Virus record (IMG/VR): IMGVR_UViG_3300042868_007474
Coordinates: 1-56,325 of that record
DNA from: a virus
Reading direction: 5' to 3' (one strand)
DNA: 56,325 nucleotides
Shown: positions 34,930 through 48,880 of the stretch, one piece after another
How positions within the stretch are numbered: position 1 is the stretch's first letter
Layout of the letters: the number at the start of each line of letters is the position of its first letter
Position numbers and translations under genes: made by a program
Notes under the pieces: model-generated
What the model was told of the DNA's origin: nothing
The model's input: only the letters and a program-made list of their open reading frames with translations
Database searches by the model: none

Positions 34930-34957
34930 TTGACAACACCCCTTGGTTGTGCATAAT
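34930..34957 (+). promoter_or_regulatory. strong class-II promoter
   Basis: TTGACA at 34930-34935, 16-nt spacer ending TGTG, CATAAT at 34952-34957. ATG starts 10 nt later. Confidence 0.85.
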
Positions 34958-34967
34958 GTATCTCGTT

Positions 34968-35177
34968 ATGAAAACCAAAAAAGAAAAACAAACGCACTTC
35001 GTCACCGCCAACATCACCATCGTCTATGAGGTCTTTACGGACTCCAAGGGCAAGGCGGAAATCAAGTTTATGGAGGCGTTCGAGAACCTTGACGAGCGAG
35101 CCGAGATGGTTCGTGATTGCATCCTTGAAATCGAAAAGGTTGAGAACGCTCACGAACATCTCGGAGATGCAGAATAA
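34968..35177 (+). CDS. 69-residue acidic protein, unknown
   Basis: MKTKKEKQTHFVTANITIVYEVF, a strand-helix fold with acidic C-terminus (RDCILEIEKVENAHEHLGDAE). The promoter (TTGACA-N16-CATAAT) is near consensus, so it should be strongly expressed. Start 10 nt after the -10. Confidence 0.75.
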   Translation: MKTKKEKQTHFVTANITIVYEVFTDSKGKAEIKFMEAFENLDERAEMVRDCILEIEKVENAHEHLGDAE

Positions 35178-35182
35178 TTAAT

Positions 35183-35210
35183 TTGACAAACCACAACGCA
35201 ACGCCATACT
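35183..35210 (+). promoter_or_regulatory. strong class-II promoter
   Basis: TTGACA at 35183-35188, 16-nt spacer, CATACT at 35205-35210; ATG 10 nt later. Confidence 0.85.
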
Positions 35211-35220
35211 GTATCTTGTT

Positions 35221-35484
35221 ATGACCAACCTCCGACCATCATCCAAACTCACCAAGGAAGAACTCGCCAAGGCTACGCCAGAGACCCGCAGGGTCTTGGC
35301 TATGAAGCCCGTCATCTATCCCAAGACCGACAAGGGCTTTGGAAAGGCCGAGGATGACTTTGCCTTCCTTATGGACTATGCCCTTGGAACTGACGAGGGT
35401 GAAGTTATCAACAACGCCTTGAATTGGAAGCGTTGGGAACTCTCGGAATACTACGAAAAGAAATACGGCTGGGATATCTGTTAA
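35221..35484 (+). CDS. 87-residue protein, unknown
   Basis: MTNLRPSSKLTKEELAKATPETR, then a globular part (DDFAFLMDYALGTDEGEVINNAL) ending YEKKYGWDIC. Followed by a GCCCC..GGGGC hairpin. No recognised domain. Confidence 0.74.
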   Translation: MTNLRPSSKLTKEELAKATPETRRVLAMKPVIYPKTDKGFGKAEDDFAFLMDYALGTDEGEVINNALNWKRWELSEYYEKKYGWDIC

Positions 35485-35611
35485 TAGTTTGCCCCGTCAA
35501 GGGGGCAACACATACATAGGTTTGTATATGCAGGTATTCAGTCGTGAAATAGTTTAAAATAAACTTGTAAAGCATCCCGACTTGTGCATTATAGTAAGTC
35601 TATCACCCGCT

Positions 35612-35830
35612 ATGAACACCACACCCAGCACCCACGCCATCGTCACCGACCTCGGAACTCAATGGTTCGACCTCCTCGGCCTCCGCAATGAAGCCCCTTA
35701 CGGGAGTGCCAAGTATAACCGAGCCGAGGCCAAGATGACCATCCTTGAGGACAAGGCATCTATGCTAATCTTTAATGACACCGACCACACTATGTGTGAG
35801 TGCCTCAACGGCAGGGAGGAGGAGCGTTAA
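35612..35830 (+). CDS. 72-residue protein, unknown
   Basis: MNTTPSTHAIVTDLGTQWFDLLGLR, with a helical middle and ECLNGREEER end. Promoter TTGTAA-N16-CATTAT; leader of about 15 nt. The N-terminal part of the longer frame lies in the promoter. Confidence 0.72.
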   Translation: MNTTPSTHAIVTDLGTQWFDLLGLRNEAPYGSAKYNRAEAKMTILEDKASMLIFNDTDHTMCECLNGREEER

Positions 35831-35970
35831 GAGGCAGGGCGAGACGCACCAAATGCGTCATCGCTCCGCTTGCTAGGTATGTTATATGATTGGTTTCGGT
35901 CGTATCTTTTTATTCTATTTTATCTTTTGGTGCTGGACTTTCTCCCCTCGGTGTGCATACTTGTTCTTCT

Positions 35971-36267
35971 ATGACCCCCCACAGCATCATTGACACCACC
36001 CAGCGGGCTTGCCTCCGACTCCTCCCGCACAAGCCCACGGAGGACGGCGTTGTTTACCTCCGAGAGGTCATCACCACGACTCTCGACTCTATCGGCATTG
36101 ACGAGAAAATGCCCGTGGTGGTCAAGCACATGGCAGTCCTTGCCGAGTGGGATGTTGAACACCTCCACCAATTCGAAAGCCACCAGCGACCTCACATCAT
36201 CGAGTGCCTTGGCATCTGTGCGTATCTCTCCGACAAGATGAACGAAGGTTATTTTCAAAATAACTGA
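35971..36267 (+). CDS. 98-residue protein, unknown
   Basis: MTPHSIIDTTQRACLRLLPHKP; helical, with a His/Glu-rich middle (AVLAEWDVEHLHQFESHQRPH). -10 CATACT, -35 TGGACT. ATG 13 nt after the -10. The following gene's promoter starts right after the stop. Confidence 0.72.
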   Translation: MTPHSIIDTTQRACLRLLPHKPTEDGVVYLREVITTTLDSIGIDEKMPVVVKHMAVLAEWDVEHLHQFESHQRPHIIECLGICAYLSDKMNEGYFQNN

Positions 36268-36334
36268 AAATAAACTTGCATTAAAAAATGATTTGTGCAT
36301 ACTGTATCTTCTCACCCAATACCAACAAAAACAA

Positions 36335-36655
36335 ATGAAGCCCAACACCGACACCCTCAACGCCTTCCTTGACGAACACACCACGCACTTGTCTGCGGAG
36401 GTCGTGTCCCTCTGGATGGAGAACCTCCACGAAACCGAGCCGACTCGGGATATCCTCGACCAAGCCGAAGAGGCTTATATCGGTGAGTTCCGAGACCTTA
36501 CCCGCCTTGCCGAGTATCTGATTGATGAGTCGGGTATGCTCTCAAACATCCCCTCCGAGGTCGCCAATTATTTCGACTACGAGAAGTATGGCAATGACCT
36601 CCGAATGGGTGGAGATGTTTGGGAGTCGGAAGGACACTTCTTCCGCAACATCTAA
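36335..36655 (+). CDS. ArdA-like antirestriction protein (short)
   Basis: 106 residues from MKPNTDTLNAFLDE after an A/C leader. The C-terminal half, EAYIGEFRDLTRLAEYLIDE, then ANYFDYEKYGNDLRMGGDVW and GHFFRN, follows the ArdA pattern (F-x-D-Y/F-E-x-Y-x-x-D-L, then G-x-x-F). The N-terminal about 50 residues are short compared with full ArdA (about 160-170), so only the C-terminal domain is present. ArdA mimics DNA and blocks type I restriction. Acidic overall. Activity of a short form is untested. Confidence 0.68.
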   Translation: MKPNTDTLNAFLDEHTTHLSAEVVSLWMENLHETEPTRDILDQAEEAYIGEFRDLTRLAEYLIDESGMLSNIPSEVANYFDYEKYGNDLRMGGDVWESEGHFFRNI

Positions 36656-36796
36656 CCAGCGGGAGACCGCCCCGAGAGGGGGCTTCTCCTTTGGTCGGAT
36701 ACATAGGCAATGCTATGGTTGAAAATAATTAAAAATTATCTTGTAAGTTTTAGATTTTATGTCATACTGTATCTCTATCACCCACCACACACAACA

Positions 36797-37030
36797 ATGA
36801 GCCGCACCCCTCCCGAAACCGACACCGAAATCCGTAACGAGTTCTCCGACCGCTACAACTACTTCTCGTTTATGACGATGGTAGCCCAATGCAAGAACCG
36901 TGCCTCCCAGAAGGCCGTCTGTGCTTACGCCCGCCGCATGATGGTCGTCCTTGGCTATCCCGCCGAGACCGCCACTTGGGACGATGCCCAGACCATCAAC
37001 TACGCACAAAATATTGTGATGATGGGCTAA
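36797..37030 (+). CDS. 77-residue helical protein, family D
   Basis: MSRTPPET..., with the RASQKAVCAYARRMMVVLGYP segment shared with 34718-34879. Promoter TTGTAA-N16-CATACT; leader CACCCACCACACACAACA. Helical bundle-like; unknown role. Confidence 0.72.
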   Translation: MSRTPPETDTEIRNEFSDRYNYFSFMTMVAQCKNRASQKAVCAYARRMMVVLGYPAETATWDDAQTINYAQNIVMMG

Positions 37031-37075
37031 AAATAATCTTGTATTCAAACCCAATCCGTGCATACTGTATCTACT

Positions 37076-37336
37076 ATGACCACCAACTATTCCCCCCAGC
37101 AGGTTTCTCACATCGCCCTCCAGCACCTTGACTGCCCCGAGCATCTTCCTCGGGCGTGGTCTGACATGACCCCCAGCGAACAGGCTATGGCCGTCTGGTT
37201 TATGAGACGCAGGGACTACCACACCCGCTCGGGAGTGGCTTACCACATCCTCGGCTGTGCCACCAAGGCCAAGGGCGACCATCTCACCGAGGCCGAGGCC
37301 GACACCCTCTGGGAACTCATCTTCCCCAAGGAGTGA
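37076..37336 (+). CDS. 86-residue protein, unknown
   Basis: MTTNYSPQQVSHIALQHLDCP, then a helical Trp/Met-rich region (RAWSDMTPSEQAMAVWFMRRR) and an acidic end. Promoter TTGTAT-N16-CATACT with only 9 nt to the ATG. No family recognised. Confidence 0.74.
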   Translation: MTTNYSPQQVSHIALQHLDCPEHLPRAWSDMTPSEQAMAVWFMRRRDYHTRSGVAYHILGCATKAKGDHLTEAEADTLWELIFPKE

Positions 37337-37458
37337 GGCACGGGGGGCTTTGCCCCTCGGCTTCGCCGTTGCTAGGTATCTATACGCACGAATGCCGTCA
37401 TAAAATAAATGCATTTGGTGCTTGAAAAAACCTCCGACCCGTGTATCCTGTATCTCGT

Positions 37459-37683
37459 ATGAATGAGAACTCAATTGCCCGCCTCGGCTTTGACGCTTGG
37501 GCTGATAACATCATCGTCAATGTCATCGAGAACGCCCCTCCCTTGCCCTTCAAGTGGGAGGACGACCACGGGACGACTGTGGCTATCACCCGCCAAGGAG
37601 ACGACCTCCACGGGGTCGTAAGGGCATACTATCACGGCTGGCAGACTCACGAAGTCTCCGTGAAAAATAAGTTTAAAAAGTGA
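37459..37683 (+). CDS. 74-residue protein, unknown
   Basis: MNENSIARLGFDAWADNIIVN; beta-rich with ITRQGDDLHGVVRAYYHGW. Promoter TTGAAA-N16-TATCCT and 9 nt to the ATG. Basic C-terminal KNKFKK tail. Unknown. Confidence 0.73.
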   Translation: MNENSIARLGFDAWADNIIVNVIENAPPLPFKWEDDHGTTVAITRQGDDLHGVVRAYYHGWQTHEVSVKNKFKK

Positions 37684-37735
37684 TTGCACAAACCTCTAAA
37701 CTGTGCATACTGTAATTCTCTCCCCCACCAAAACA

Positions 37736-37915
37736 ATGAAAACCCCACAAAACCAAAAAGCAGAAATCGCCCGCCTCATTAAGTATATCACCAAGCAAGC
37801 GGTGATTTGCGATGACGGACGCTCCATCGGCTCGGAAGAGGAACAGCAGGAGCAGTCCTGCCGACTGATGGAAGCACTTCTCCGCCTCAACATCCTCATT
37901 GACGAGCAGGAGTAA
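37736..37915 (+). CDS. 59-residue helical protein, unknown
   Basis: MKTPQNQKAEIARLIKYITKQ with Glu-rich second half (EEEQQEQSCRLMEALLRLNI). TTGCAC-N16-CATACT. Small helical adaptor-like protein of unknown role; followed by a CCCCC..GGGGG hairpin with T-run. Confidence 0.72.
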   Translation: MKTPQNQKAEIARLIKYITKQAVICDDGRSIGSEEEQQEQSCRLMEALLRLNILIDEQE

Positions 37916-38010
37916 GGGGTAAGGCAGGACAAACAAACCGAGGGGGCTCACGCCCCCTCTTTTGTTTTGTGTTAGTCGGCTTCGCCTCCTATGCACCAGA
38001 TGCGTCAGCC

Positions 38011-38036
38011 CATTTGGTATAGTCTAACAGAAAAAC
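38011..38036. promoter_or_regulatory. intergenic element II, copy 6
   Basis: CATTTGGTATAGTCTAACAGAAAAAC, then GTAAAGCAC. Lies between the terminator of the previous gene and a 38093-38120 promoter. Confidence 0.6.
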
Positions 38037-38092
38037 AAAACAAAGTAAAGCACTAAACCAAAAATAAAAGTTTAGTTATTTTCTCAAATCGC

Positions 38093-38120
38093 TTTACTTC
38101 CGTCTCAAAGTGTGCATAGT
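38093..38120 (+). promoter_or_regulatory. array promoter
   Basis: TTTACT at 38093-38098, 16-nt spacer, CATAGT at 38115-38120; an in-frame ATG follows 5 nt later. Confidence 0.7.
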
Positions 38121-38158
38121 AGTCTATGTCACCAACGACACCAACCACCCAAAAACAT

Positions 38159-38674
38159 ATGAGCCACAACATCACCAACACGAAAGCCCTCGCCTTCGTC
38201 CACGCCTGCAACGACAAGAAGGGTCAGTTCATCGAACTGTCCTTCAAGTCCGAACCGACCCCCGCTTCCGCCTTCAAGGGCGTGAAGTTGGAAAAGTTCA
38301 CCAAGGGCGTGTATCGCACGGGTATCAACTTCGCCAACCTCGCCCCCGTCAAGGAAGCGATTGAAAACAAGGAGCGGGGTGAAGTCCAGCCCCTCGCTTG
38401 GGGTTCGTGGGCGGTTTTCCCCCTCGTCATCGCCCATACCAACAAGGCGGGCGAATACAAGGAATACCTCCGTATCACCTTCTCCCCCTCCCACAAGCCC
38501 GTTGTGGCTTACAAGGTGGACGGCGTGGAAGTGTCGAAGGAACACTTCGAAAGCCACCTGCGTCCGTCCGACCGCCTCCCGAAGCCCCCGACCTTGGTGT
38601 TCAACATCGAAGCGGACAACCTTCTGGAAGTCCACGGGCTCGACCTCACGGAAGCCGAAGTGTCGGGGGTCTAA
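38159..38674 (+). CDS. 171-residue protein, family B, unknown
   Basis: Paralogue of 31807-32334 over its full length (KGQFIELSFKSEPTPASAF, VYRTGINFANL, KERGEVQPL, VDGVEVSKEHFES). I chose the ATG after the CCAAAAACAT leader; an in-frame ATG 33 nt upstream (MSPTTPTTQKH) is 5 nt after the -10 and may be the leaderless start. Function unknown; similar proteins in pairs suggest a host-takeover or DNA-contact role only by guess. Confidence 0.78.
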   Translation: MSHNITNTKALAFVHACNDKKGQFIELSFKSEPTPASAFKGVKLEKFTKGVYRTGINFANLAPVKEAIENKERGEVQPLAWGSWAVFPLVIAHTNKAGEYKEYLRITFSPSHKPVVAYKVDGVEVSKEHFESHLRPSDRLPKPPTLVFNIEADNLLEVHGLDLTEAEVSGV

Positions 38675-38730
38675 CCCCCAGCCCTCTGGGGCTCGCCTCC
38701 ACCTCGCAAGGGGTGGGGGCTTCTCCGTTT

Positions 38731-38760
38731 GAACAGGCGTTCAGTAGTGAACATCTGTTC
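38731..38760. repeat. two GAAC-N4-GTTC palindromes
   Basis: GAACAGGCGTTC (38731-38742) and GAACATCTGTTC (38749-38760), separated by AGTAGT. Tandem arrangement 113 nt upstream of the next start. Confidence 0.65.
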
Positions 38761-38872
38761 ACCAATCATAGACCTATGCATTAGACATAGGTATGGTTAT
38801 GGCGGAAGGCGGTCAAATAAAGTTGTCGATTGTAGTTGTAATTTTTCCCGACCCGTGCATACTGACTCTCGT

Positions 38873-39196
38873 ATGAATAACACTACCAAGTTCCCCAAGT
38901 TCAGAACCTTCCTCAACGACCACAACAAATCGCCGAGGGCTATTGCCCTCGCCGTGTGCAACAAGGCATCCAAGAACGCCTGTTCCTGTTCGCTGGACGA
39001 CCTGCCCGAGACCTTCTCCTTCGTCCGTGAGGTCGATACGATGGAGAACACTATTGCCAATTGGGGCATCCCTCGCAACCCCTCTGACGGGCAGATTGAA
39101 GCCCTTTACAAGCACGCCTTGGAAGCCGTCCAAGACCTCTCCGTGTCGGCGGGCTTCTATCGCCTCCACAGCATTAAGCACCCGATTAAAATCTAA
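38873..39196 (+). CDS. 107-residue protein, unknown
   Basis: MNNTTKFPKFRTFLNDHNKSP; central Cys-rich stretch (NKASKNACSCSLDDLPETF) and helical C-terminus. ATG 8-9 nt after CATACT (TTGTAA-N16-CATACT). The longer upstream frame covers the promoter and is not used. Confidence 0.74.
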   Translation: MNNTTKFPKFRTFLNDHNKSPRAIALAVCNKASKNACSCSLDDLPETFSFVREVDTMENTIANWGIPRNPSDGQIEALYKHALEAVQDLSVSAGFYRLHSIKHPIKI

Positions 39197-39238
39197 AAAT
39201 CTTCTTGCAAAAAACCAAAACCCATACATACTACTTAA

Positions 39239-39526
39239 ATGCACATCACCCATCATCACAACTGCCACATCCATTCGGCTGTCCAGAACCTTACCCACGC
39301 AATCAAGCACCTCGAAAATGCTGACAAGGAGTTTCTTGTCGCCGAGGTGGTAGCATCCATTGGCGAGACGGGGGCGGTAGTCCCCGAGGATTATGTTCGC
39401 TTTATCGCAAATCCGTCCCGTAAGGAAGGTCGCTATCGCCTCCTCCGTGCCATCTCCGAAATGGAAAACGCTATTAAGGATGTCAGAAAGTCCCTTGAAA
39501 CCGACCCCAATAATGTCGAAAGTTGA
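39239..39526 (+). CDS. 95-residue His-rich helical protein
   Basis: MHITHHHNCHIHSAVQNLTHA: His-rich N-terminus, then helices and acidic end. Leaderless: ATG 7 nt after CATACT (TTGCAA-N16-CATACT). The His cluster could bind metal. Its stop overlaps the next gene by about 14 nt. Confidence 0.72.
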   Translation: MHITHHHNCHIHSAVQNLTHAIKHLENADKEFLVAEVVASIGETGAVVPEDYVRFIANPSRKEGRYRLLRAISEMENAIKDVRKSLETDPNNVES

Positions 39527-39695
39527 GGATGCGGATAGCCACCGAATGGCCGAGGTCAGAGACCTTGTGCTATTCGTTATCCGAGCCAAAGATAAATTGG
39601 CTGGGCAACCCGAGCCAGCCCGCTCGGAGAACCTTGCCCGTATCAAGGAAGCACAGATGAGGCTTGAAATTATAAAGTCCCATATGGGGCTGTAA
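39513..39695 (+). CDS. 60-residue helical protein, unknown
   Basis: MSKVEDADSHRMAEVRDLVLFV... starts inside the end of the previous gene. A GGGGCT GTA AGCCCC hairpin overlaps its stop codon, a possible attenuator or terminator without T-run. Coupled with the previous gene. Confidence 0.66.
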   Translation: MSKVEDADSHRMAEVRDLVLFVIRAKDKLAGQPEPARSENLARIKEAQMRLEIIKSHMGL

Positions 39696-39719
39696 GCCCC
39701 ATTGACATAAGACAATTAT

Positions 39720-39923
39720 ATGGATAAGTATATTAAAACGGCTTACGATGCGGCACTCTCGGCGGGGACTCCACTTCAAAAAGAAGCGTGTGCAAAGTTT
39801 AAGGAAGTTATGCTTGAGGCAGGTGGCCCAAAAGAGTTCCAAGAATGGTCTGACGAAAAGGTTATGGACTTCGCAATAGACCTTATACTAAAAACCAAGA
39901 TTAGACAGCACATAATTGATTGA
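39720..39923 (+). CDS. 67-residue helical protein, unknown
   Basis: MDKYIKTAYDAALSAGTPLQ, followed by more helices. A TTGACA lies 21 nt upstream but its spaced -10 falls inside the gene, so the promoter is doubtful and it may be read from the preceding gene. AT-rich codon use differs from neighbours (GAT, AAA), hinting at separate origin. Confidence 0.65.
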   Translation: MDKYIKTAYDAALSAGTPLQKEACAKFKEVMLEAGGPKEFQEWSDEKVMDFAIDLILKTKIRQHIID

Positions 39924-40009
39924 TAGGTATTTATATGACGGCATTCGGTCATTAAAATAGTTTAAGATAAACTTGCATTTGGTTGCAGGGTGTGCATACT
40001 GTATCTCGT

Positions 40010-40375
40010 ATGAAACACACCACCAAGAAAGCCATCCTCATTAACGCCAAGACCAACACCGTCAGTTTCGTGGAGGTCGGTGAATACACCGACATTTACA
40101 AGCACTGCGGTTATCAGACCTTTACCTGCGTGGGTCTCCCGCAGGAGAAGGAAACCCTCTATGTCGATGACGAGGGTCTTATCAATGGCACGGACTACGG
40201 CTTTACCATCGAGGGCTACGCCGACCCCCTTATGGGCAACGGACTCATTCTCGGGACTCGTTCCAACGGGGACAGCCGAGACACCGACCTTACGGTTGAG
40301 GAAGTTTGTAAAATGGTTCGCATTCTTCGCCCAACGGCTTTCGGCTTCATTTCGATGAAGCCCACGGCTGGATAA
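40010..40375 (+). CDS. DUF3846-like protein
   Basis: 121 residues. KKAILINAKTNTVSFVEVGEYTDIYKHCG, then ETLYVDDEGLINGTDYGF, EGYADPLMGNGLILGT. The D-D-E-G-L turn and the PLxGNGLxxG segment are typical of DUF3846 proteins, small phage proteins of unknown function. Promoter TTGCAT-N16-CATACT with 9 nt to the ATG. Basic N-terminus, beta-rich core. Confidence 0.75.
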   Translation: MKHTTKKAILINAKTNTVSFVEVGEYTDIYKHCGYQTFTCVGLPQEKETLYVDDEGLINGTDYGFTIEGYADPLMGNGLILGTRSNGDSRDTDLTVEEVCKMVRILRPTAFGFISMKPTAG

Positions 40376-40390
40376 TTGGTTAAAATCTTC

Positions 40391-40418
40391 TTGACATTAC
40401 TCACACTATTCGCATACT
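40391..40418 (+). promoter_or_regulatory. strong class-II promoter
   Basis: TTGACA at 40391-40396, 16-nt spacer, CATACT at 40413-40418. Confidence 0.85.
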
Positions 40419-40428
40419 TATTAACACT

Positions 40429-40761
40429 ATGGACTACCAGATTTACGAAGTTGTAATTCGCTACCTTGACACCCCAGACGAAGAACCCCACGCCGTCCTT
40501 GTGTCGGTCGGGGAAGACCAGCCCGAGGAGGGTGGCGAGGATGACGAGGCTTGTTTTTTCCATTTCTACCCGTTTGAGTGGGAAGACCTTTGCAAGACCA
40601 TTAAGGAGGGTTTCCGCTATGATGTAGACGGCGAGTTCCGAGTTGAGAACCACGGGGACGAGTATGTTGAAGACCTTGCCAATGAGCCAGACGAAGACCC
40701 AGAGCCAATGGGCGATGAGGTCGAAGGCGAGACCGAGCAAGAACCAGAACAGGGTGCTTGA
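40429..40761 (+). CDS. 110-residue acidic protein, unknown
   Basis: Beta-rich front (MDYQIYEVVIRYLDTPDEEPHA), acidic EEGGEDDE turn, FYPFEWEDLCKTI, then a strongly acidic tail (NEPDEDPEPMGDEVEGETEQ). Start 10 nt after CATACT. The tail could be a DNA mimic; no motif found. Ends the plus-strand block before the RNA region. Confidence 0.72.
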   Translation: MDYQIYEVVIRYLDTPDEEPHAVLVSVGEDQPEEGGEDDEACFFHFYPFEWEDLCKTIKEGFRYDVDGEFRVENHGDEYVEDLANEPDEDPEPMGDEVEGETEQEPEQGA

Positions 40762-40805
40762 CGGCTCTGCCGCTTGTTAGGTATCTTGCAGTAACTTAAA
40801 CAACT

Positions 40806-40843
40806 GAAAGACCCCCCACACGAAACACCGTGTGGAGGGTCAG
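40806..40843 (-). terminator. terminator of RNA-1
   Basis: Minus-strand hairpin GACCCTCCACAC GGTGTTTC GTGTGGGGGGTC followed by TTTC. Very strong stem (10-11 bp); it also may stop plus-strand read-through. Confidence 0.8.
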
Positions 40844-41137
40844 TTGTTATGTATGAACCAACGCTAAATGAAGGCTAACAGGGATAGTTCCAGCGACAAC
40901 AATAACATTCCGTGCCTTGCAACCAACAACAACAACGCTTGGGGCTCTTACGATGCTCCCCACTTCCCTGTTAGCACAAATTAATCGGAGATTTTTCGAT
41001 AGTCCTTTTCACCCTGCTCTGGTTAGACCAATCGAGGGTGTCGGCTCACCGCTGGTAGTCGGTGGCAGTCCTTACGGATACTGCAAGGGGGCGGGCCTCA
41101 CGGCTTGTCGCATCTCCAAAGTGTTTCAATCAACGAT
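40806..41137 (-). ncRNA. candidate structured RNA-1 (about 330 nt)
   Basis: A minus-strand promoter (TTGCAT 41166-41171, 16-nt spacer, CATACT 41144-41149) would start RNA near 41137, ending at the hairpin 40806-40843. No ORF longer than about 14 codons begins near the 5' end. Potential helices: GCC GTGA GGC, CACCG ... CGGTG, CACCCT ... AGGGTG enclosing TGGT CTA ACCA, ATCG ... CGAT, and an 11-bp long-range helix GCTAACAGGGA (40965-40975) with TCCCTGTTAGC (40874-40884). Its first residues resemble RNA-2. No known class was recognised (not tmRNA, RNase P or group I intron by eye). Confidence 0.62.
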
Positions 41138-41143
41138 ACATAC

Positions 41144-41171
41144 AGTATGCATAACCTTTCGGATAATGCAA
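41144..41171 (-). promoter_or_regulatory. promoter of RNA-1
   Basis: TTGCAT, 16-nt spacer, CATACT then GTATGTATC on the minus strand, matching the array class-II form although all neighbouring genes are on plus. Confidence 0.8.
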
Positions 41172-41179
41172 GAAGAAAG

Positions 41180-41373
41180 TTGAATGTCTTGTGCCTTTGC
41201 AGATGGGGGAAGTTCTCCGTATTCCCACCCGCTTTGTCCGCACAAGCATCTTGGGTTTGTAGTCGGAGCGTTCCGCTCCCGCTGTCTCTTCCCCCGCTTT
41301 GGACACGGGGTGATAGCCATTGGCAACCAGCGAGGTTTCTACAAACTTGCACAAAGTGATTTCAATTAACAAT
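41180..41373 (-). ncRNA. candidate structured RNA-2 (about 190 nt)
   Basis: Promoter at 41380-41407 (minus). The transcript would begin near 41373 and share its start (GTTRATTGAAA-CACTTTG) with RNA-1. Nested pairing: CTTTGT with ACAAAG, GTTTGTAG with CTACAAAC, and internal hairpins CCCCG/CGGGG, GGAGCG GAA CGCTCC and GGGAA/TTCCC. The 66-codon ORF on this strand crosses the RNA-1 promoter and does not look like a protein. No terminator is visible before the RNA-1 promoter, so read-through into RNA-1 is possible. A rod-like fold recalls 6S RNA, but no diagnostic feature confirms it. Confidence 0.58.
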
Positions 41374-41379
41374 AAATAC

Positions 41380-41407
41380 AGTATGCATACCTCCGAAAGA
41401 AATGCAA
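41380..41407 (-). promoter_or_regulatory. promoter of RNA-2
   Basis: TTGCAT at 41402-41407, 16-nt spacer, CATACT at 41380-41385 on the minus strand. Confidence 0.8.
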
Positions 41408-41504
41408 GCACCATTTTAACATTCATTTGCTAGGTCGCTATATGATTGAAAATAGTTGAATAAACATCTTGAAAAAAATCTAAAACCTGTAATACTGTAT
41501 CTCT

Positions 41505-41693
41505 ATGACACTCGCTCAATACCAGCAAGGAATGAAACGACTCGCCGAAATCCGCAACAGCCTTACCACGGCTCGGCAGGAACTCGCCTCCGAGAAGAAC
41601 TACGACCTGCGTGAAATGCATCAAGCGGTTATCAATGCCCTTATGGCAGAAATGCAGGAAACCGAAACCTTAATGAACGGACTTCAAAAATAA
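41505..41693 (+). CDS. 62-residue helical protein, unknown
   Basis: MTLAQYQQGMKRLAEIRNSL; coiled-coil type helices ending ETETLMNGLQK. Promoter TTGAAA-N16-AATACT, ATG 9 nt after it. Unknown role. Confidence 0.72.
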   Translation: MTLAQYQQGMKRLAEIRNSLTTARQELASEKNYDLREMHQAVINALMAEMQETETLMNGLQK

Positions 41694-41757
41694 TTCATTT
41701 TCATCTTTACATTAAATCAGATTTGTGCATACTGTATCTTCTAACCCAAACAACCAA

Positions 41758-42045
41758 ATGACCACACTCAAAACCGTCTCCATCTACAACACCATCGACA
41801 CGATGACCGCCCGCAAGCCCTCTTGTTGGGGGGATATCCCCGCCGTGGCTGTCGCTCACGAACTGAAATCCATTCTGTTCGGTCGCCTCCCCGTGCTGGA
41901 AATCGAGTCCGCAGAATACCATCCCCTCGATGACATTGAAGGTGGTGTGCCGAACCAGCGTTTTATGCTGAACTACGGCGAGAAGACTTACTATGTGAAC
42001 TCCGAGGGCTATAACTATTGCCGATACATTTGCGAAATTGTTTGA
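41758..42045 (+). CDS. 95-residue protein, unknown
   Basis: MTTLKTVSIYNTIDTMTARKPS, beta-rich with Cys/Tyr end (YNYCRYICEIV). Promoter TTTACA-N16-CATACT; A/C leader (CTAACCCAAACAACCAA). No family. Confidence 0.73.
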   Translation: MTTLKTVSIYNTIDTMTARKPSCWGDIPAVAVAHELKSILFGRLPVLEIESAEYHPLDDIEGGVPNQRFMLNYGEKTYYVNSEGYNYCRYICEIV

Positions 42046-42092
42046 CTTTCCAACCCAAATAACCATACTAACTAAATCCAACCAACACTACT

Positions 42093-42359
42093 ATGAGCAA
42101 TATGTCTTACTGCCGTTTCGAAAATACCGTCTCCGACTTGGAGGACTGCGTTGAGTCGTGGAGCGATGGTGTTTCGTCCAAGGACGAAGCCCGAGCCCGC
42201 CAGCGACTTGTCGAGGTCGCCGAGGAAGTCCTCTCCCTCTACCGCTCTGACAGGGAGATGGTGGACAGCCTTGAACTCAATGAGGAGGGCAAGTCTTACG
42301 AGGCTGACGATGACGACACGGAGGACGAGGATAACGAGTCCTCCTCGGACTCCGAGTAA
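42093..42359 (+). CDS. MSNMSYCRF-family protein
   Basis: 88 residues starting MSNMSYCRFENTVSDLEDCVESW. This N-terminal signature is common in phage proteins of unknown function (SYCRFxNTxxDLxDC). The acidic helical rest ends in an Asp/Glu/Ser tail (DDDDTEDEDNESSSDSE). Promoter TTGACT-N16-CATACT with an A/C-rich 26-nt leader. Terminator CCCC TCAC GGGG plus T4 at 42365-42387. Confidence 0.78.
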   Translation: MSNMSYCRFENTVSDLEDCVESWSDGVSSKDEARARQRLVEVAEEVLSLYRSDREMVDSLELNEEGKSYEADDDDTEDEDNESSSDSE

Positions 42360-42439
42360 GGTTTAGCCCCTCACGGGGCTTTTCCTTTGGTTTGGTTGTT
42401 AGGTATCTAACAGACCCCAAAGTTGCCCCCACGGCGACC

Positions 42440-42465
42440 CATTTGGAATATTGTAGCACATTCGC
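42440..42465. promoter_or_regulatory. intergenic element II, copy 7
   Basis: CATTTGGAATATTGTAGCACATTC, then GTAAAGCAAAAAG. Confidence 0.6.
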
Positions 42466-42532
42466 AAGCCGTTGTAAAGCAAAAAGATAAGAGTTTATTC
42501 TTTGATTGTTTTACGAAAAGATAACTTTGTGC

Positions 42533-42560
42533 TTGCGGAAACTTAAATCGTATGCATACT
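42533..42560 (+). promoter_or_regulatory. promoter of DUF932-like gene
   Basis: TTGCGG at 42533-42538, 16-nt spacer, CATACT at 42555-42560; leader of about 50 nt, A/C-rich. Confidence 0.75.
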
Positions 42561-42614
42561 TGTAAGAGTCCAATCAAGGACAACCAACCAAAACTAAACC
42601 AAACCAAAATACAT

Positions 42615-43490
42615 ATGACCACGAACCTCACCACCACCACCGCCTCGGAAGCCATTGAGCGTCAGACTGAAAAGTTTGACTACACGGTTTCCCAAGTCCC
42701 GTTCCACCTCCCGAACGGCTCGCAGACCCGTTTTCTCGCTAATGTGCGGGATGACAACGGCGAAGTCCTCGGGTGCGTCTCCGACCGCTACGAAGTCCTC
42801 CAAAACTCCGATATGCTCGGGGCTTCCGAAGACCTCTTCAAGGCCGAGGGCTTCTCTAACTTCAAGCGTAAGACCGTTTGCACGAACGGCGGGGCTCGCA
42901 TCCGAGCCATTTATGACTTCCCCGACCACGGCTTCAAACTGTCGAACGGGAACGACCTCACCTTCCGCTTGAAGGTTCAGAACTCCTTTGACGGCTCGCT
43001 CCGTGCCTCGTTCCAAGTCGGTCTCGTTCGCCTCGTTTGCACGAACGGCCTTGCCCTCCCCGTTGCGGCTGTTGGTATGTCCCGCAAGCACACCCAGCAC
43101 CTCGACCCGAACGGTCTCCGTGAGGCGTTCGCCCGCTCCATTAACGCCTTCAAGGAGTCCGCTCCCCTCTTCAATCGGATGATTGAGACCCGCTTGACGC
43201 AGGAGGAGGGCAACAGCATCCTGCTGAACTTCGAAAAGTCCAAGGTTATGAGCGAGCGGATGCGTGAGGGCATACAAGCGGTTTGGGAGCGTCCGACTTA
43301 CGCCGAGGACAGCACCCGCAACCTGTTCAACCTCTACAACGCCACGACCCAGCACCTTACCCATTCGGTTGAGGGCAAGCGGTTCGAACTTGCCGAGCGT
43401 GTGAACACGGGAGTCCTCAACTCCATCTCCAAGGCGGTGAAGCGAAACAACCTCGCCTCGCTGATGGTTGCCAACCTCGGGGATAACTAA
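42615..43490 (+). CDS. DUF932-like phage/plasmid protein
   Basis: 291 residues, the largest array gene. RFLANVRDDNGEVLGCVSDRYEVLQN near the front, KRKTVCTNGGARIRAIYDFPD, RASFQVGLVRLVCTNGLALP and an AERVNTGVLNSISKAVKRN end agree with DUF932 (phage/plasmid-like) proteins. The family is common on mobile DNA; the function is unknown, possibly DNA-associated. ATG preferred after the ACCAAACCAAAATACAT leader; an in-frame start in the promoter is not used. A long GC-rich hairpin follows the stop. Confidence 0.78.
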   Translation: MTTNLTTTTASEAIERQTEKFDYTVSQVPFHLPNGSQTRFLANVRDDNGEVLGCVSDRYEVLQNSDMLGASEDLFKAEGFSNFKRKTVCTNGGARIRAIYDFPDHGFKLSNGNDLTFRLKVQNSFDGSLRASFQVGLVRLVCTNGLALPVAAVGMSRKHTQHLDPNGLREAFARSINAFKESAPLFNRMIETRLTQEEGNSILLNFEKSKVMSERMREGIQAVWERPTYAEDSTRNLFNLYNATTQHLTHSVEGKRFELAERVNTGVLNSISKAVKRNNLASLMVANLGDN

Positions 43491-43586
43491 TCCCCCGAGC
43501 GGGCGGGTCGAACAGGGTGGGGGCTAACGCCCCCGCCCTTTCTTTGTTTGCAAGCATTGACAAACCTGCTATGCTGTCCCCCTCAT

Positions 43587-43922
43587 ATGGTATCCAAAAA
43601 AGATTATTTTAAAGTTGACCTTTTCCCCGATGGTATGCATTGTCCAAAATGCAGGGGAGTGCATTTCCACCCCAAGGCAACGGTTTTACCAAACCTAGTA
43701 TCCGTAGTGCCAGACCCAAAGGGTAAGGACGGGAAAGTTAGCCTGTGGGTGGCTCGGTCTGAGTGCCTAACAACAGGGTGCAACGGCTTTGTGGATTGGA
43801 CATTCCATCCCGACTACTGCAACGGAGACCGCCTTGGAAACCCTTATAGAGCCATTGTAGAGTGGGGTTCTAACCCACTTGGGCTGGAAGCGTTCAAGGA
43901 CTTCCCTCGGAGCAATAGTTAA
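43587..43922 (+). CDS. 111-residue Cys-pair protein
   Basis: CPKCRGVHFHP and SECLTTGCNGFVDW: two Cys pairs (C-x-x-C, C-x4-C) suggest a zinc ribbon with a conserved aromatic core. The start at 43587 lies after a CCCTCAT leader; -35 TTGCAA, -10 TATGCT at 16 nt. Function unknown. Confidence 0.74.
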   Translation: MVSKKDYFKVDLFPDGMHCPKCRGVHFHPKATVLPNLVSVVPDPKGKDGKVSLWVARSECLTTGCNGFVDWTFHPDYCNGDRLGNPYRAIVEWGSNPLGLEAFKDFPRSNS

Positions 43923-43977
43923 GTTTTTTAGATTTGATGCTTGTATTTCTCAGAGGTTCGTGCATACTGTATCTACT

Positions 43978-44145
43978 ATGAAACACGAAATGGAATACAT
44001 CGCAACCATCCAAGTCCTCTCTGGCTCTATGGCTGGACAGATGCTTGAAATCGAAACGCTGGACAAGTGGGCTATTGGCTCTCACCACCACATCGCCGAG
44101 CAGACCTTTGTCGTCCTCGGCCTTGAAGAAAATCCGCTGGAATGA
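43978..44145 (+). CDS. 55-residue protein, unknown
   Basis: MKHEMEYIATIQVLSGSMAGQ, a compact beta-rich protein ending VVLGLEENPLE. Promoter TTGTAT-N16-CATACT, ATG 9 nt after. Unknown. Confidence 0.72.
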   Translation: MKHEMEYIATIQVLSGSMAGQMLEIETLDKWAIGSHHHIAEQTFVVLGLEENPLE

Positions 44146-44203
44146 AAATAAGACTTGTAATCTAAACCAAAATTTGCATACTGTATCTTCTCCAACCAAT
44201 ACC

Positions 44204-44449
44204 ATGAAAAACACTAACTACAAAATCCAGAACGACACCCTTGATAAGATTAAGCCCGCCCTTGATAAGGCAAAGATTAAGTGGGTGCTTGTCTTTGACG
44301 AGGATGTGCTTGACCGCCTTGACGGCGACCCCCGCCTTGCAAAACTCACGCCCGAAATCATGGAGTCCATCAAGGACGACACCGTTGATGCCCTTATGGA
44401 AGCGTGGGCTGATTGCATCGACTCTGCCATTGACAACAACATCCGATAA
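44204..44449 (+). CDS. 81-residue protein, family E
   Basis: MKNTNYKIQNDTLDKI; the stretch WVLVFDEDVLDRL ... MESIKDDTVDALMEAWADCI is related to genes at 45464 and 48349 (shared hydrophobic-acidic strand, then an I-K-x-x-V-x-D-A-L helix). Acidic. The promoter of the next gene (TTGACA) is embedded in its last codons. Unknown. Confidence 0.74.
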   Translation: MKNTNYKIQNDTLDKIKPALDKAKIKWVLVFDEDVLDRLDGDPRLAKLTPEIMESIKDDTVDALMEAWADCIDSAIDNNIR

Positions 44450-44457
44450 AGCATAAT
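44430..44457 (+). promoter_or_regulatory. promoter inside the end of gene 44204-44449
   Basis: TTGACA at 44430-44435, 16-nt spacer, CATAAT at 44452-44457. It drives 44467-44850; the -35 lies within the previous coding sequence. Confidence 0.82.
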
Positions 44458-44466
44458 ACTACTACT

Positions 44467-44850
44467 ATGGGACTCGACCAATACGCTTACTCGGTTAGCA
44501 AGGCAGACCGACCCCTGCTTGACTCGCAGGAATACTATGACGGCGAAGCCGTCATTGAGTCCCAAGAGGAACTTGCTTATTGGAGAAAACACGCCGACCT
44601 TAACGGATGGATGACCAACCTCTACCACAGCAAGGGTGGAGAAGGGAGTTTTAATGGAGAAATTCTTGAGTTAAATGAGGACGACCTCAACTCCCTGCAA
44701 GAAGCCGTCAAGGAAGGTCTTGAGACTGCTACGGGGTTTTTCTGGGGTGTGTCTGACGAGCGACACGACAACGAGACCGTGGCTTTCATCAAGAAGGCAC
44801 TACGAGAGGTGAAGAAGGGTAATGTAGTTTATTATTGTTGCTCTTGGTAA
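44467..44850 (+). CDS. conserved phage protein (MGLDQYAY family)
   Basis: 127 residues: MGLDQYAYSVSK, then YWRKHADLNGWMTNLY, LNEDDLNSLQEAV and GFFWGVSDERHDNE ... FIKKALREVKKGNVVYYCCSW. This N-terminus with a Trp-Arg-Lys-His motif and aromatic end is widely conserved in phages; the function is unknown. ATG 9 nt after CATAAT. A GCCCC/GGGGC terminator with T-run lies at 44854-44876. Confidence 0.78.
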   Translation: MGLDQYAYSVSKADRPLLDSQEYYDGEAVIESQEELAYWRKHADLNGWMTNLYHSKGGEGSFNGEILELNEDDLNSLQEAVKEGLETATGFFWGVSDERHDNETVAFIKKALREVKKGNVVYYCCSW

Positions 44851-44967
44851 AACAATGCCCCGCAGGTGCGGGGCTTCTGTTTGCTCTGGTTGTTAGGTAT
44901 GTATATGATTGAAAGAAATCATAAAATCTTCTTGCAATTTTTATAAACTTATGAATACTGTATGTCT

Positions 44968-45270
44968 ATGACTAAACCCAAGAAAGCCACCAAGTCCGTT
45001 GCCTGTCCCCACCTCGCTGTCGCTTATGAAGGCGGTGGCAATTGGGGTTGGGCATACTACAACACCGCTCAGAAGGCCGTAGAGGTCGCCGAATGGATTA
45101 AGGCGGGGAATAACACCAAGTTCGCTTGCAAGGGTCGTGTGGAGGCTGACAGCGACAAGGGAACGGTCATTAAGGACGGCTCGACCCTCTGGTGCATCCA
45201 CTTTCACTATGACAACACCAATCGCCCTGCATACATCCAGAGCGTTCCAAATATTCGCACTTTGTGGTAA
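44968..45270 (+). CDS. 100-residue protein, unknown
   Basis: MTKPKKATKSVACPHLAVAYEG; beta-rich (FACKGRVEADSDKG; STLWCIHFHYDN) ending IRTLW. Promoter TTGCAA-N16-AATACT; an in-frame ATG two codons upstream is possible. Unknown role. Confidence 0.72.
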   Translation: MTKPKKATKSVACPHLAVAYEGGGNWGWAYYNTAQKAVEVAEWIKAGNNTKFACKGRVEADSDKGTVIKDGSTLWCIHFHYDNTNRPAYIQSVPNIRTLW

Positions 45271-45311
45271 TAAATTCTTTACAAGCCCAACCACTTGTGC
45301 ATACTGTATCT

Positions 45312-45425
45312 ATGACTAACAAGAATACCAAGCGAGCCAGCGGTGGCTCTTTCTGGAAGGTCGAAAGCAAAGCCGACCTCCTTAAGCGACCTGCAAAAAA
45401 GTCTAAAAAAGTTCTTGCAAAATAA
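45312..45425 (+). CDS. 37-residue basic peptide
   Basis: MTNKNTKRASGGSFWKVESK ... KKSKKVLAK. Very Lys-rich. ATG 9 nt after CATACT (TTTACA-N16-CATACT). The next promoter (TTGCAA 45415) overlaps its last codons. Possibly binds nucleic acid. Confidence 0.66.
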   Translation: MTNKNTKRASGGSFWKVESKADLLKRPAKKSKKVLAK

Positions 45426-45442
45426 ACCAACTTCCACATACT
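45415..45442 (+). promoter_or_regulatory. promoter inside end of gene 45312-45425
   Basis: TTGCAA at 45415-45420, 16-nt spacer, CATACT at 45437-45442. Confidence 0.8.
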
Positions 45443-45463
45443 AATCAATCCACCACCAATACT

Positions 45464-45697
45464 ATGAATACCTCCCCCAAAAACAAAGCCCTCCTCGAAA
45501 TGTCCCGCCTTGCGGCTCGGCACGGCATCCTCTACCTCGTCATTGAAGACGAACTGATTGAGACTTACGCCGAAGACGCTGAACTCAAACTTGACTCCGT
45601 GACTATGATGGAGATTAAGGAAGCCGTCCTTGATGCCCTCCAGCAGGATGTTGAAGGACACATTGAGACCGCCGTAGATGATATGGTCGGTAACTAA
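45464..45697 (+). CDS. 77-residue protein, family E
   Basis: MNTSPKNKALLEMSRLAARHG, then ILYLVIEDELIETYAED and MMEIKEAVLDALQQDVEGHI. Paralogue of 44204-44449 and, more weakly, 48349-48591. Acidic; unknown function. Confidence 0.73.
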   Translation: MNTSPKNKALLEMSRLAARHGILYLVIEDELIETYAEDAELKLDSVTMMEIKEAVLDALQQDVEGHIETAVDDMVGN

Positions 45698-45723
45698 TTC
45701 TAACCCAAACCACAAATACAAAA

Positions 45724-45933
45724 ATGAAGCAATACCTCATCACAAAGACTATCACCATCTCGTTTGAATGCGAGGCTAAGAATGAAAAGGACGCTATCAA
45801 GCAGTTCAATTCTGACTTTGAAGATATGTTTAACAATACCGACTCTCAGTTGGACGAAGACCAGCCCGAGAATGTCTATGTAGCCAAGGAGAATGGGGAA
45901 TATGTCCCTGTTGCCGAAGCCAAGGATGCTTGA
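45724..45933 (+). CDS. 69-residue protein, family F
   Basis: MKQYLITKTITISFECEAKNEKD followed by an acidic end. A related pattern (I-x-I/L-x-x-x-C, helix with A/E-K-E-A) occurs at 46050-46271 and 47350-47571. No own promoter visible; 26 nt after the previous stop, so probably co-transcribed. CCCCC TCAC GGGGG terminator at 45939-45962. Confidence 0.72.
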   Translation: MKQYLITKTITISFECEAKNEKDAIKQFNSDFEDMFNNTDSQLDEDQPENVYVAKENGEYVPVAEAKDA

Positions 45934-46049
45934 ACAGAACGCCCCCTCACGGGGGCTTCTTCTTGGAATGATTGTTAGGCACTTATATGATTAAAGAATT
46001 TCATAAAATGTCCTTGCAATTTGTCCGACTTCATACATACTATCAATCT

Positions 46050-46271
46050 ATGACCACTACCAAAAAGAAAGCCAAGAAGCCCGTCCTTAAAACATTCATC
46101 GTATCCGAGCAAATCTTCCTTAATTGGGAGTGCAAGGCTACTTCCGCAAAAGAAGCCCGTGAGATGTATGAATTCTACATCGCTGACGATGTTCAACTTC
46201 AAGAACTCTTGAAGGAAGCGTTAGAGAACAAGTGGGATGCTGGTGTCAATGTGGAGGAAGTCAAGGAATGA
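46050..46271 (+). CDS. 73-residue protein, family F
   Basis: MTTTKKKAKKPVLKTFIVSEQIFLNWECKAT, then a helix (AKEAREMYEFYIADDVQLQELL). TTGCAA-N16-CATACT and 8 nt to the ATG. Its stop overlaps the next start (ATGA). Family F member; function unknown. Confidence 0.72.
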   Translation: MTTTKKKAKKPVLKTFIVSEQIFLNWECKATSAKEAREMYEFYIADDVQLQELLKEALENKWDAGVNVEEVKE

Positions 46272-46447
46272 AAGTCTACATTGCCTTCCTCTGGGGCAAC
46301 GGTAGCCCATACATTGAAGCCAAGTTGGAGAATGGGATGAAAGTCCCATTCCGAGACTTGACTACTTGGAACGCTAAGGCCAAGAAGCGAGTCAAGGAAC
46401 ACCTTGAAAGTGTCTACGGCTATAAAGAAGTTCACTTTATTACTTGA
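46268..46447 (+). CDS. 59-residue basic protein, unknown
   Basis: MKVYIAFLWGNGSPYIEAKLE; starts in an ATGA overlap with the preceding stop, so it is translationally coupled. Lys/Glu-rich end (KAKKRVKEHLESVYGYKEV). Unknown. Confidence 0.7.
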   Translation: MKVYIAFLWGNGSPYIEAKLENGMKVPFRDLTTWNAKAKKRVKEHLESVYGYKEVHFIT

Positions 46448-46477
46448 CCATTAACAACAAACCTGCATACTGACTTT

Positions 46478-46771
46478 ATGGAACACATCATTGCAAAAAT
46501 TATGAAAATGAAGCGAGAAGACCGAGTGGCTCTCGCCCACGGCCTCCTTATGGAACTTGAAAAAGCAGAGGACATTACCTGCTGGAACTTCTGGGAGCGT
46601 CAGACTGTTAAGGAAATTGCCCTTGAAAACATCAATGGCAAGATTTCCGAAGCCGAACTGACTGGCCTCATGGGTCGTCTCAACAAGGAGTGGGATAGCC
46701 TTGCCCAACACGATTGGGAAAAGTTCTCCGACAACCTTAACAAGCATCTTAAACAAATGCGAATTAAGTAA
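46478..46771 (+). CDS. 97-residue helical protein, unknown
   Basis: MEHIIAKIMKMKREDRVALAHG, then helical segments (DWEKFSDNLNKHLKQMRIK). Promoter TTGACC-N16-CATACT with 6 nt to the ATG. No family recognised. Confidence 0.73.
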   Translation: MEHIIAKIMKMKREDRVALAHGLLMELEKAEDITCWNFWERQTVKEIALENINGKISEAELTGLMGRLNKEWDSLAQHDWEKFSDNLNKHLKQMRIK

Positions 46772-46968
46772 TGAACAACCCAATCAAGGGCAATCGAGCA
46801 AATCCAAGCGAACCAGTAAATGTTCGCCGTTTTGCCGTAAGCAGATATAAAGTATTAATTAATGAAGCAGTTGAAATGCGGAAGCAGGACAAGAAGCGAT
46901 GGGAAGTCTTGTTCTCTATGAACAAATGGCAACCACAAGATGGCACAACGCAAACCAAGAAACCATAA
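46771..46968 (+). CDS. 65-residue basic protein, unknown
   Basis: Starts at an ATG overlapping the previous stop (TAATG). MNNPIKGNRANPSEPVNVRRF; basic with a helix (LINEAVEMRKQDKKRWEVLF). Co-translated group with neighbours. Unknown. Confidence 0.7.
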   Translation: MNNPIKGNRANPSEPVNVRRFAVSRYKVLINEAVEMRKQDKKRWEVLFSMNKWQPQDGTTQTKKP

Positions 46969-47155
46969 GATAGACCCAGCCAAGGTCGAAGAGGCGGCTC
47001 GGAGACTTGGACGCAGGGTGCTTGAACTAATGCTAGATGGTCTGGCTGACGATGAACTCGCAAGGGCATACGATGGTCTCCGAGATGCCTTGGTAGGTAT
47101 TCCAGACTACTCTTATACTCCACCAAAAAAGAAAGCCCCCACCCCGAAGGGGTGA
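46940..47155 (+). CDS. 71-residue basic protein, unknown
   Basis: MAQRKPRNHKIDPAKVEEAARRL followed by an acidic helix and a PPKKKAPTPKG tail. It overlaps the previous gene by 29 nt in another frame. Arg/Lys-rich; might bind nucleic acid. Ends at a hairpin shared with the opposite-strand genes. Confidence 0.68.
   Translation: MAQRKPRNHKIDPAKVEEAARRLGRRVLELMLDGLADDELARAYDGLRDALVGIPDYSYTPPKKKAPTPKG
47132..47154 (-). terminator. terminator of minus-strand pocket
   Basis: Minus-strand CACCCC TTC GGGGTG hairpin, followed by GGGGCTTTCTTTTTT. It serves the 47172 gene; on plus the T-run is weak. Confidence 0.72.
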
Positions 47156-47171
47156 GAGCGTCTTTAAGTTT

Positions 47172-47345
47172 TTACTTGCAATCGTATTTTTCTGCCCGCT
47201 CTTTGGCGATTTCCTCAATCTGATACCAGATTTTAGCCATTGTATCGTCATCATACTTGGCCTTGTCGTATTGACCTTGACCCCACGACCCCTTTGCCCA
47301 ATCAAGGGCGTGTAAGGCCGTGTTTCTGATTTCCTCGTTGGTCAT
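47172..47345 (-). CDS. 57-residue protein, unknown
   Basis: MTNEEIRNTALHALDWAKGSW, from the ATG just after the stop of the next upstream gene; the longer N-terminal frame overlaps that gene. Helical with a Trp and acidic stretch (DDDTMAKIWYQIEEIAKERAEK). Coupled to 47350-47571. Confidence 0.7.
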   Translation of the reverse strand: MTNEEIRNTALHALDWAKGSWGQGQYDKAKYDDDTMAKIWYQIEEIAKERAEKYDCK

Positions 47346-47349
47346 CGGT

Positions 47350-47571
47350 TTAGTATTCGTGGGTTTCGTTGCCCTCGGCATCCTGCGAGTAGCAGGTGAA
47401 GTCAGAGGAGTCAGCAATCATCTTGCCGAACTTGACATTCTCCACGAACGCATTAAGATACTTCTCTTGGGCTTCCTCGAAAGAGTTAGCCACGATGCCT
47501 CGGGATTGGATGGTGATGGTTTCGTTGAAGAAGTAAGTCTTCTTCGTGTTGGTGGTGTTTTCGTTGGTCAT
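47350..47571 (-). CDS. 73-residue protein, family F
   Basis: MTNENTTNTKKTYFFNETITI; related to 45724 and 46050 proteins (strand then E-E-A helix). Promoter TTGCAC 47614-47619, 16-nt spacer, CATACT 47592-47597, then an A/C leader CTCTCACCCAAACACC. Although on minus, it uses the array promoter type. Confidence 0.74.
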   Translation of the reverse strand: MTNENTTNTKKTYFFNETITIQSRGIVANSFEEAQEKYLNAFVENVKFGKMIADSSDFTCYSQDAEGNETHEY

Positions 47572-47632
47572 GGTGTTTGGGTGAGAGATACAGTATGTAT
47601 GGTTTTAGATTTTGTGCAAGACATTTGTCTGA

Positions 47633-47938
47633 TTATTTCAGATAAATCGTCTTCACTCGTTCGTAGTTTCCATTGATGCTGGTAGTAATGTCGAAAATCC
47701 TGTTATCAATAGAGCGGACTTCGAACTCTCCGCTTGCCATCTGTTTAAGGGCTTTGATAATCTTGCCTTCGTGTTCGTCAATTTCAAAGTATTCGCCCTT
47801 GCAACCGCAACGGCAGTTGTTGCCCTTGCCGATGTAGAGGTTATCCACCTTGTCAAGGGTGATGACAATCTCACCATCCCCATCAGACGAGGTGTGCTTG
47901 ATTTTGTATTCAGTTCCGAGGTTCATAGTGTTGGTCAT
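47633..47938 (-). CDS. 101-residue Cys-rich protein
   Basis: MTNTMNLGTEYKIKHTSSDG; contains CRCGCKGEYFEIDEHEGKII, with a C-x-C-x-C cluster and acidic turn. Promoter TTGTTG-N16-CATACT. Start 8 nt after the -10, so nearly leaderless. Metal binding plausible. Unknown family. Confidence 0.73.
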   Translation of the reverse strand: MTNTMNLGTEYKIKHTSSDGDGEIVITLDKVDNLYIGKGNNCRCGCKGEYFEIDEHEGKIIKALKQMASGEFEVRSIDNRIFDITTSINGNYERVKTIYLK

Positions 47939-47984
47939 AGAAATACAGTATGCACAGATTTTATAAAACAACAAGCATTATTTC

Positions 47985-48233: not shown

Positions 48234-48303
48234 AGAGATACAGTATGCACGGACTTGCACTTTTTTCAAGATAAAAGATTTAATATTTTGACGGCAGATG
48301 TGC

Positions 48304-48331: not shown

Positions 48332-48348
48332 ACACCGTAAGCAATACT

Positions 48349-48879: not shown

Positions 48880-48880
48880 A

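Follow-up and report, generated by a model that had tools for sequence, protein, structure and literature searches.

We identified a structured RNA of approximately 190 nt, referred to as RNA-2, which is almost certainly a real, conserved RNA gene and which, as judged from sequence comparison, is a new and previously uncatalogued RNA family in a group of uncultivated tailed phages. The analysed stretch of DNA (hereafter the window) is the whole of the IMG/VR virus record IMGVR_UViG_3300042868_007474, 56,325 bases in length. RNA-2 and its neighbour RNA-1 are read from the minus strand (Table 1), which also carries the portal, head protease, major head protein, terminase and primase genes; ten tRNA genes are located at 48.9-50.7 kb. 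Among the best-ranked matches in catalogued phages, the terminase is approximately 25% identical and the primase approximately 30%, and by these predicted proteins the phage group is without a close relative in the catalogued collection.

The comparison set consisted of 32 related uncultivated phage records, all metagenomic and mostly fragments, with some near-duplicates (G027/G031, G019/G020 and G022/G028). The lack of RNA-2 in close relatives with short contigs should not be read as evidence of its loss. The relative G001 is 80.5 kb in length, and the best of the genes flanking the two RNAs is 82% identical between this phage and the window. The last ~124 bases of the window (56194-56317) share 99% identity with the final 124 bases of G001, a value well above that of the neighbouring sequence, and both contigs end there.

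Table 1. Features of the proposed RNA-2/RNA-1 unit in the window, and examples of the island found in relatives.
Feature	Position	Strand	Remark
RNA-2 promoter, -35 element TTGCAT	41402..41407	-	Pattern common to ~20 promoters of the phage
RNA-2 promoter, GCATACTGTAT: -10 hexamer CATACT (41385-41380) and conserved GTAT	41376..41386	-	Exact match
RNA-2 leader GTTAATTGAAA, boxA-like but degenerate	41360..41370	-	Two mismatches to GTTCTTTGAAA
RNA-2, conserved structured RNA (model R1)	41173..41359	-	203.6 bits; covariation
RNA-1 promoter, -35 element TTGCAT	41166..41171	-	Directly 3' of the RNA-2 end
RNA-1 promoter, GCATACTGTAT (-10 at 41149-41144)	41140..41150	-	Promoter pattern
RNA-1 leader GTTGATTGAAA, same degenerate boxA-like element	41124..41134	-	Leader alignment
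RNA-1, a different structured RNA; P1 GGAGAU/AUCUCC closes a multibranched fold	40985..41122	-	Near-unchanged core in G001
Rho-independent terminator shared by RNA-2 and RNA-1	40810..40841	-	14-bp stem and T-rich tail
Island example	L111 2528-5079	+	RNA-2 read on this strand
Island example	L118 3917-5943	+	RNA-2 read on this strand

Fold, covariation and distribution of RNA-2

RNA-2 folded better than all 200 shuffled sequences (z -2.82). Helix P1 encloses P2, which contains P3 and P4, and a variable hairpin, and is followed by a two-part 3' hairpin (P5 and P6). Homologues were found by DNA comparison in G001 first, then in G027, G024 and G026, and a scan of viral contigs with CCGTGTCCAAAGCGGG added G015, L081 (G030), L087 (G031) and L093 (G032); the pattern CATACTGTATNTATNGTTNATTGAAA gave no match in such a scan. 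The covariance model R1, seeded with seven sequences, detected RNA-2 once each in 15 of the 32 related records (12 distinct sequences; weakest E 3.3e-14), including the non-seed genomes G019/G020, G028/G022, G009, G026 and G023. RNA-2 had no match in Rfam or in catalogued phages, and an Rfam search of the window at E<=10 revealed no convincing known family.

In the seed alignment, which was built without structure, 12 of 40 pairs showed pair-keeping changes on both sides and 97.7% of the cells were paired; the covariation score was 0.337, versus at most 0.095 when the partners were slid. The alignment of all hits (the 12 distinct sequences) was fitted to the structure model, and here 17 of the 40 pairs were doubly changed with pairing kept, 95.3% of the cells were paired, and the score was 0.380 versus at most 0.081. 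The strongest helix is P5 of the 3' hairpin, in which six of seven pairs covary. In a single homologue, that of G026, the 5' domain and the loop differ.

An earlier note on this DNA had described RNA-2 as a structured non-coding RNA with its own promoter and had named covariation among homologues as a check. The description is strongly supported by the fold relative to shuffles, the covariation, which bears out a common structure of RNA-2, and the promoter pattern. Of the two nested helices listed in the note, GTTTGTAG/CTACAAAC is P1 and is backed by compensatory changes. The outer one, CTTTGT/ACAAAG, is not conserved, its 5' strand not being kept in the homologues, and its 3' strand is part of the internal loop in the 3' hairpin, which is itself well supported. 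A coding explanation of RNA-2 was rejected, given that many indels have lengths not divisible by three and that the compensatory pairs fit a structure.

Proposed transcription unit and the relation of RNA-1 to RNA-2

The same TTGCAT-N16-CATACT promoter precedes both RNAs, as the earlier note had stated, and it belongs to approximately 20 promoters of the same pattern. The note names no strand; the promoters and the RNAs are all on the minus strand. The predicted start of RNA-2 is at ~41373. The 11-mer GCATACTGTAT, with up to two mismatches, occurs at 35 sites in the window versus 7.4 expected from shuffles, and ~20 sites of the same promoter layout precede genes on both strands between 34.9 and 53.3 kb. 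This putative phage-wide promoter can be written as TTGnnn-N16-CATACTGTAT (about 20 sites at 34951-53311); it often lies only a few bases before an ATG, which raises the question of whether the phage produces leaderless mRNAs. Both RNAs of G001 keep the promoter, with that phage's own variant GCATCATGT in the same place.

In the window, the interval from RNA-2 to RNA-1 showed no terminator-like site, and a hairpin equivalent to the 40841-40810 terminator follows RNA-1 in G001. The likely unit thus comprises promoter, RNA-2, promoter, RNA-1 and terminator, with no protein gene inside. The only minus-strand gene of the window that follows RNA-2 before the terminator is RNA-1; the product is therefore likely to be the RNA itself. 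A cis-acting role, in which RNA-2 would be a leader or put-like antiterminator for downstream genes, would suit the relatives, where the next gene begins 40-700 nt downstream and a boxA-like motif often lies just upstream. We nevertheless regard it as improbable, as RNA-2 is conserved in the window with only RNA-1 and the terminator downstream on its strand.

Between RNA-1 and the terminator, the window contains an insert (40870-40980) which is absent in G001 and has a strong closing stem, CTAACAGGGA/TCCCTGTTAG. A Thermales-rpoB match at 40980-40870, inside this insert, was weak (E 0.35) and was rejected.

Most of the RNA-1 core is unchanged in G001, compared with the identity of 82% for the best flanking gene, and the P5 stem CACCCU/AGGGUG is replaced there by CAUACU/AGUAUG. 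The RNA-1 model matches only RNA-1, in the window, in G001 and partially in G014 (E 0.00027), in which the module CGATTGGTCTAACCAGAGY keeps its sequence while the stem is different yet complementary. The occurrence of this module in so distant a phage (L032 12316-12454, i.e. G014 40636-40774) makes it a candidate binding motif. The apical motif of RNA-1 was also found in six bacterial genomes, where the flanking stem is missing, and these matches were read as chance; comparison of RNA-1 with catalogued phages gave only short pieces at chance level.

The earlier note regarded the two RNAs as a duplicated non-coding gene with a common fold. A shared 5' start does exist: the 30 nt at 41360-41389 and at 41124-41153 share 90% identity, comprising the promoter and the first ~20 nt of the leader. 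The similarity ends there, an outcome which the note itself had named as contradicting its proposal. The bodies of the RNAs gave no further convincing alignment, and the covariance models showed no cross-matches in the window, each finding only its own RNA. Moreover, the folds differ, as do the evolutionary distributions: RNA-1 is found only in the window and G001, with part of it in G014, and RNA-2 in 15 records. It is hardly credible that the two RNAs arose by duplication of a single gene; a shared promoter cassette is possible.

The note also suggested an action on host RNA polymerase like that of 6S RNA, which binds the polymerase holoenzyme, or else an antisense or decoy function. RNA-2 resembles 6S RNA in being small and having its own promoter, and it lies on the strand opposite to neighbouring genes. 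Unlike 6S RNA, it is branched and does not form a long hairpin with a central bubble. The 6S-like action is unsupported, no 6S match being found at E<=10, and on the opposite strand no well-supported gene overlaps RNA-2. The position of its homologues in an island of tRNAs and tRNA-like RNAs points in another direction, and the chance that any of these readings is correct appears very slight.

The RNA island of related phages

In 13 relatives, RNA-2 is located on the coding strand, with the terminase gene upstream of it and the portal-side genes downstream (the neighbour on that side being an 82-aa gene or a 370-530-aa ORF). It lies near the end of an island of 2.0-2.9 kb that has no ORF longer than about 180 aa. 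Such an island was noted in G027, G022, G024, G026, G009, G015, G019, G023, G030 and G032. Different phages have island blocks of 100-400 nt in common, in different order; for example, G027 1881-1997 matches G024 437-552, and G027 377-781 matches G024 556-974.

Ordinary tRNAs are present in the islands of many relatives. In addition, 28 T-arm-like hairpins were found in the sense orientation in 24 kb of island, versus a single antisense one and 2 in 66 kb of other sequence, several of the sense hairpins being followed by an acceptor strand and CCA. Upstream of RNA-2, several islands gave weak tmRNA-like and tRNA-Sec-like Rfam matches. The tRNA-like RNAs at L107 427-553, L099 1052-1097, L101 2112-2180 and L108 2491-2620 have a T-arm, an acceptor stem and mostly CCA, with the middle enlarged or missing, and match the tmRNA model weakly. 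In this island, the phages of the group carry an entire set of putative RNA genes that are as yet unexplained.

The NusB/E complex binds boxA upstream of 16S and 23S rRNA, and the published gamma-proteobacterial boxA consensus is GYTCTTTAANA (PMC5725501). The sense strand carries 17 motifs resembling this consensus in 22.6 kb of island, versus 1.1 expected from shuffles, with 1 in 67.8 kb elsewhere and 2 on the reverse strand. These motifs are concentrated towards the island start and, in many of the phages, immediately upstream of RNA-2 (e.g. in G030), a position to which that of the RNA-2 leader in the window corresponds. This leader departs from the consensus at the core positions C4 and T5, and matches to GTTCTTTGAAA are not enriched across the window as a whole.

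In the window and in G001, RNA-2 is situated about 30 kb from the terminase-portal site, next to the phage promoter, RNA-1 and the terminator, and of the island contents only RNA-2 and tRNAs are seen, at other places. The tRNA cluster of the window also includes a 115-nt non-tRNA stretch between tRNA-Ala and tRNA-Gln (49506-49620; 98% identical in G001), which is probably another structured RNA.

These locations bear on the idea that RNA-2 is a packaging RNA recruited to the portal or terminase. Such a role is known for pRNA of the phi29 type, which binds the portal and whose copies join into a ring through loop pairing between molecules. The terminase-portal neighbourhood in 13 relatives would fit this idea, but the same stretch holds tRNAs and tRNA-like RNAs unrelated to packaging, and in the window RNA-2 is far removed from it. 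Moreover, the GUCC/GGAC pairing that the loops might form is missing from some sequences, and no conserved complementary loop pair was seen; a packaging role is very improbable. An intramolecular kissing pair between the GUCC loop and GGAC of the 3' hairpin was likewise considered and found no support, being either invariant or broken.

Alternatively, RNA-2 might be a single domain within a larger assembly, with the island of 2-3 kb forming a giant ornate RNA, or a set of assembling RNAs, in the manner of GOLLD and ROOL nanocages. These are large structured phage RNAs that are often encoded close to tRNA islands, and the linker of GOLLD can contain tRNAs (PMC12286853). The phage origin, the tRNA island and the long protein-free stretch, which is moderately more structured than the terminase gene, would be consistent with an assembly of this kind. 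However, the Rfam models of GOLLD, ROOL and OLE gave no match, the reordering of blocks between phages suits separate cassettes better than one folded molecule, and RNA-2 persists in the window and G001 without the other cassettes. We therefore consider a giant RNA unlikely.

Possible role and comparison with known systems

A heptaloop, GUCCAAA/U, is present in 11 of the 12 distinct RNA-2 sequences (CUCGAAU in G026), and GUCCAAA is kept while its stem varies by clade (CCCCGU/GCGGGG, CCCGU/ACGGG, CUGGG/CCUGG and CCGGG/CCUGG). The loop has U33 and A37 of an anticodon loop, with CCA as the anticodon. Helix P2, which has no counterpart in the cloverleaf, encloses D-arm-like and anticodon-like hairpins. 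The architecture is otherwise unlike that of tRNA, and ARAGORN and the Rfam tRNA models call the flanking tRNAs but not RNA-2.

We propose that RNA-2 would be transcribed from its own promoter as an untranslated stable RNA, and that in relatives its transcription may involve rRNA-style boxA antitermination. With less certainty, it might, like its tRNA and tRNA-like neighbours, act on the translation machinery of the infected cell, perhaps via the invariant, anticodon-loop-like GUCCAAA. The role in translation is suggested by the island company together with this seven-base loop; neighbours alone are no proof of a shared function, and the role is put forward as a lead. The reading of RNA-2 as a trans-acting structured RNA of a phage tRNA and tRNA-like island, probably acting on translation, has in our judgement about an even chance of being correct, while action on translation, taken by itself, is a more tentative claim. 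Rather unlikely, in our estimate, is a bolder version, according to which the island, set amid packaging genes, would resemble an rRNA operon, being led by boxA and made up of many tRNA-like and structured RNAs in shuffled order. RNA-2 would be one of its core members, a tRNA-like molecule in which a Trp-type anticodon loop is fused to a hairpin, and would alter parts of the host translation apparatus together with the others during infection.

To our knowledge, few structured RNAs of phages have been described. Here, one conserved RNA has led to an island of 2-3 kb of putative RNA genes, with tRNA-like molecules and signals of the rRNA antitermination type, in a phage group whose terminase is at best ~25% identical to catalogued ones. 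The separately placed copy in the window suggests that RNA-2 by itself is worth retaining. RNA-seq, structure probing and pull-downs can now draw on a concrete alignment and structure.

Several known systems invite comparison. The island neighbours upstream of RNA-2 resemble tmRNA and tRNA-Sec in their T-arm, acceptor stem and, mostly, CCA; unlike true members of these families, they match below the gathering scores, and RNA-2 itself does not match. The boxA-like motifs of the relatives' islands may correspond to those in the leaders of rRNA operons, where boxA lies near the start of an untranslated transcript, whereas no rRNA match was found in the islands tested and the window motif is degenerate. 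The stable RNAs C and D of phage T4 are small non-tRNA RNAs of a phage tRNA cluster whose function is unknown, and in relatives RNA-2 is likewise a small non-tRNA RNA gene in such a cluster, with no detectable sequence relation to them in the search of the phage collection, the comparison being by sequence only. It was also through comparisons of this kind that GOLLD and ROOL came to light, and the structures that they form proved unexpected. Like them, RNA-2 of the relatives is a phage RNA near tRNA islands; unlike them, it is only ~190 nt long and persists as its own unit, and the island around it is built of reordered blocks.
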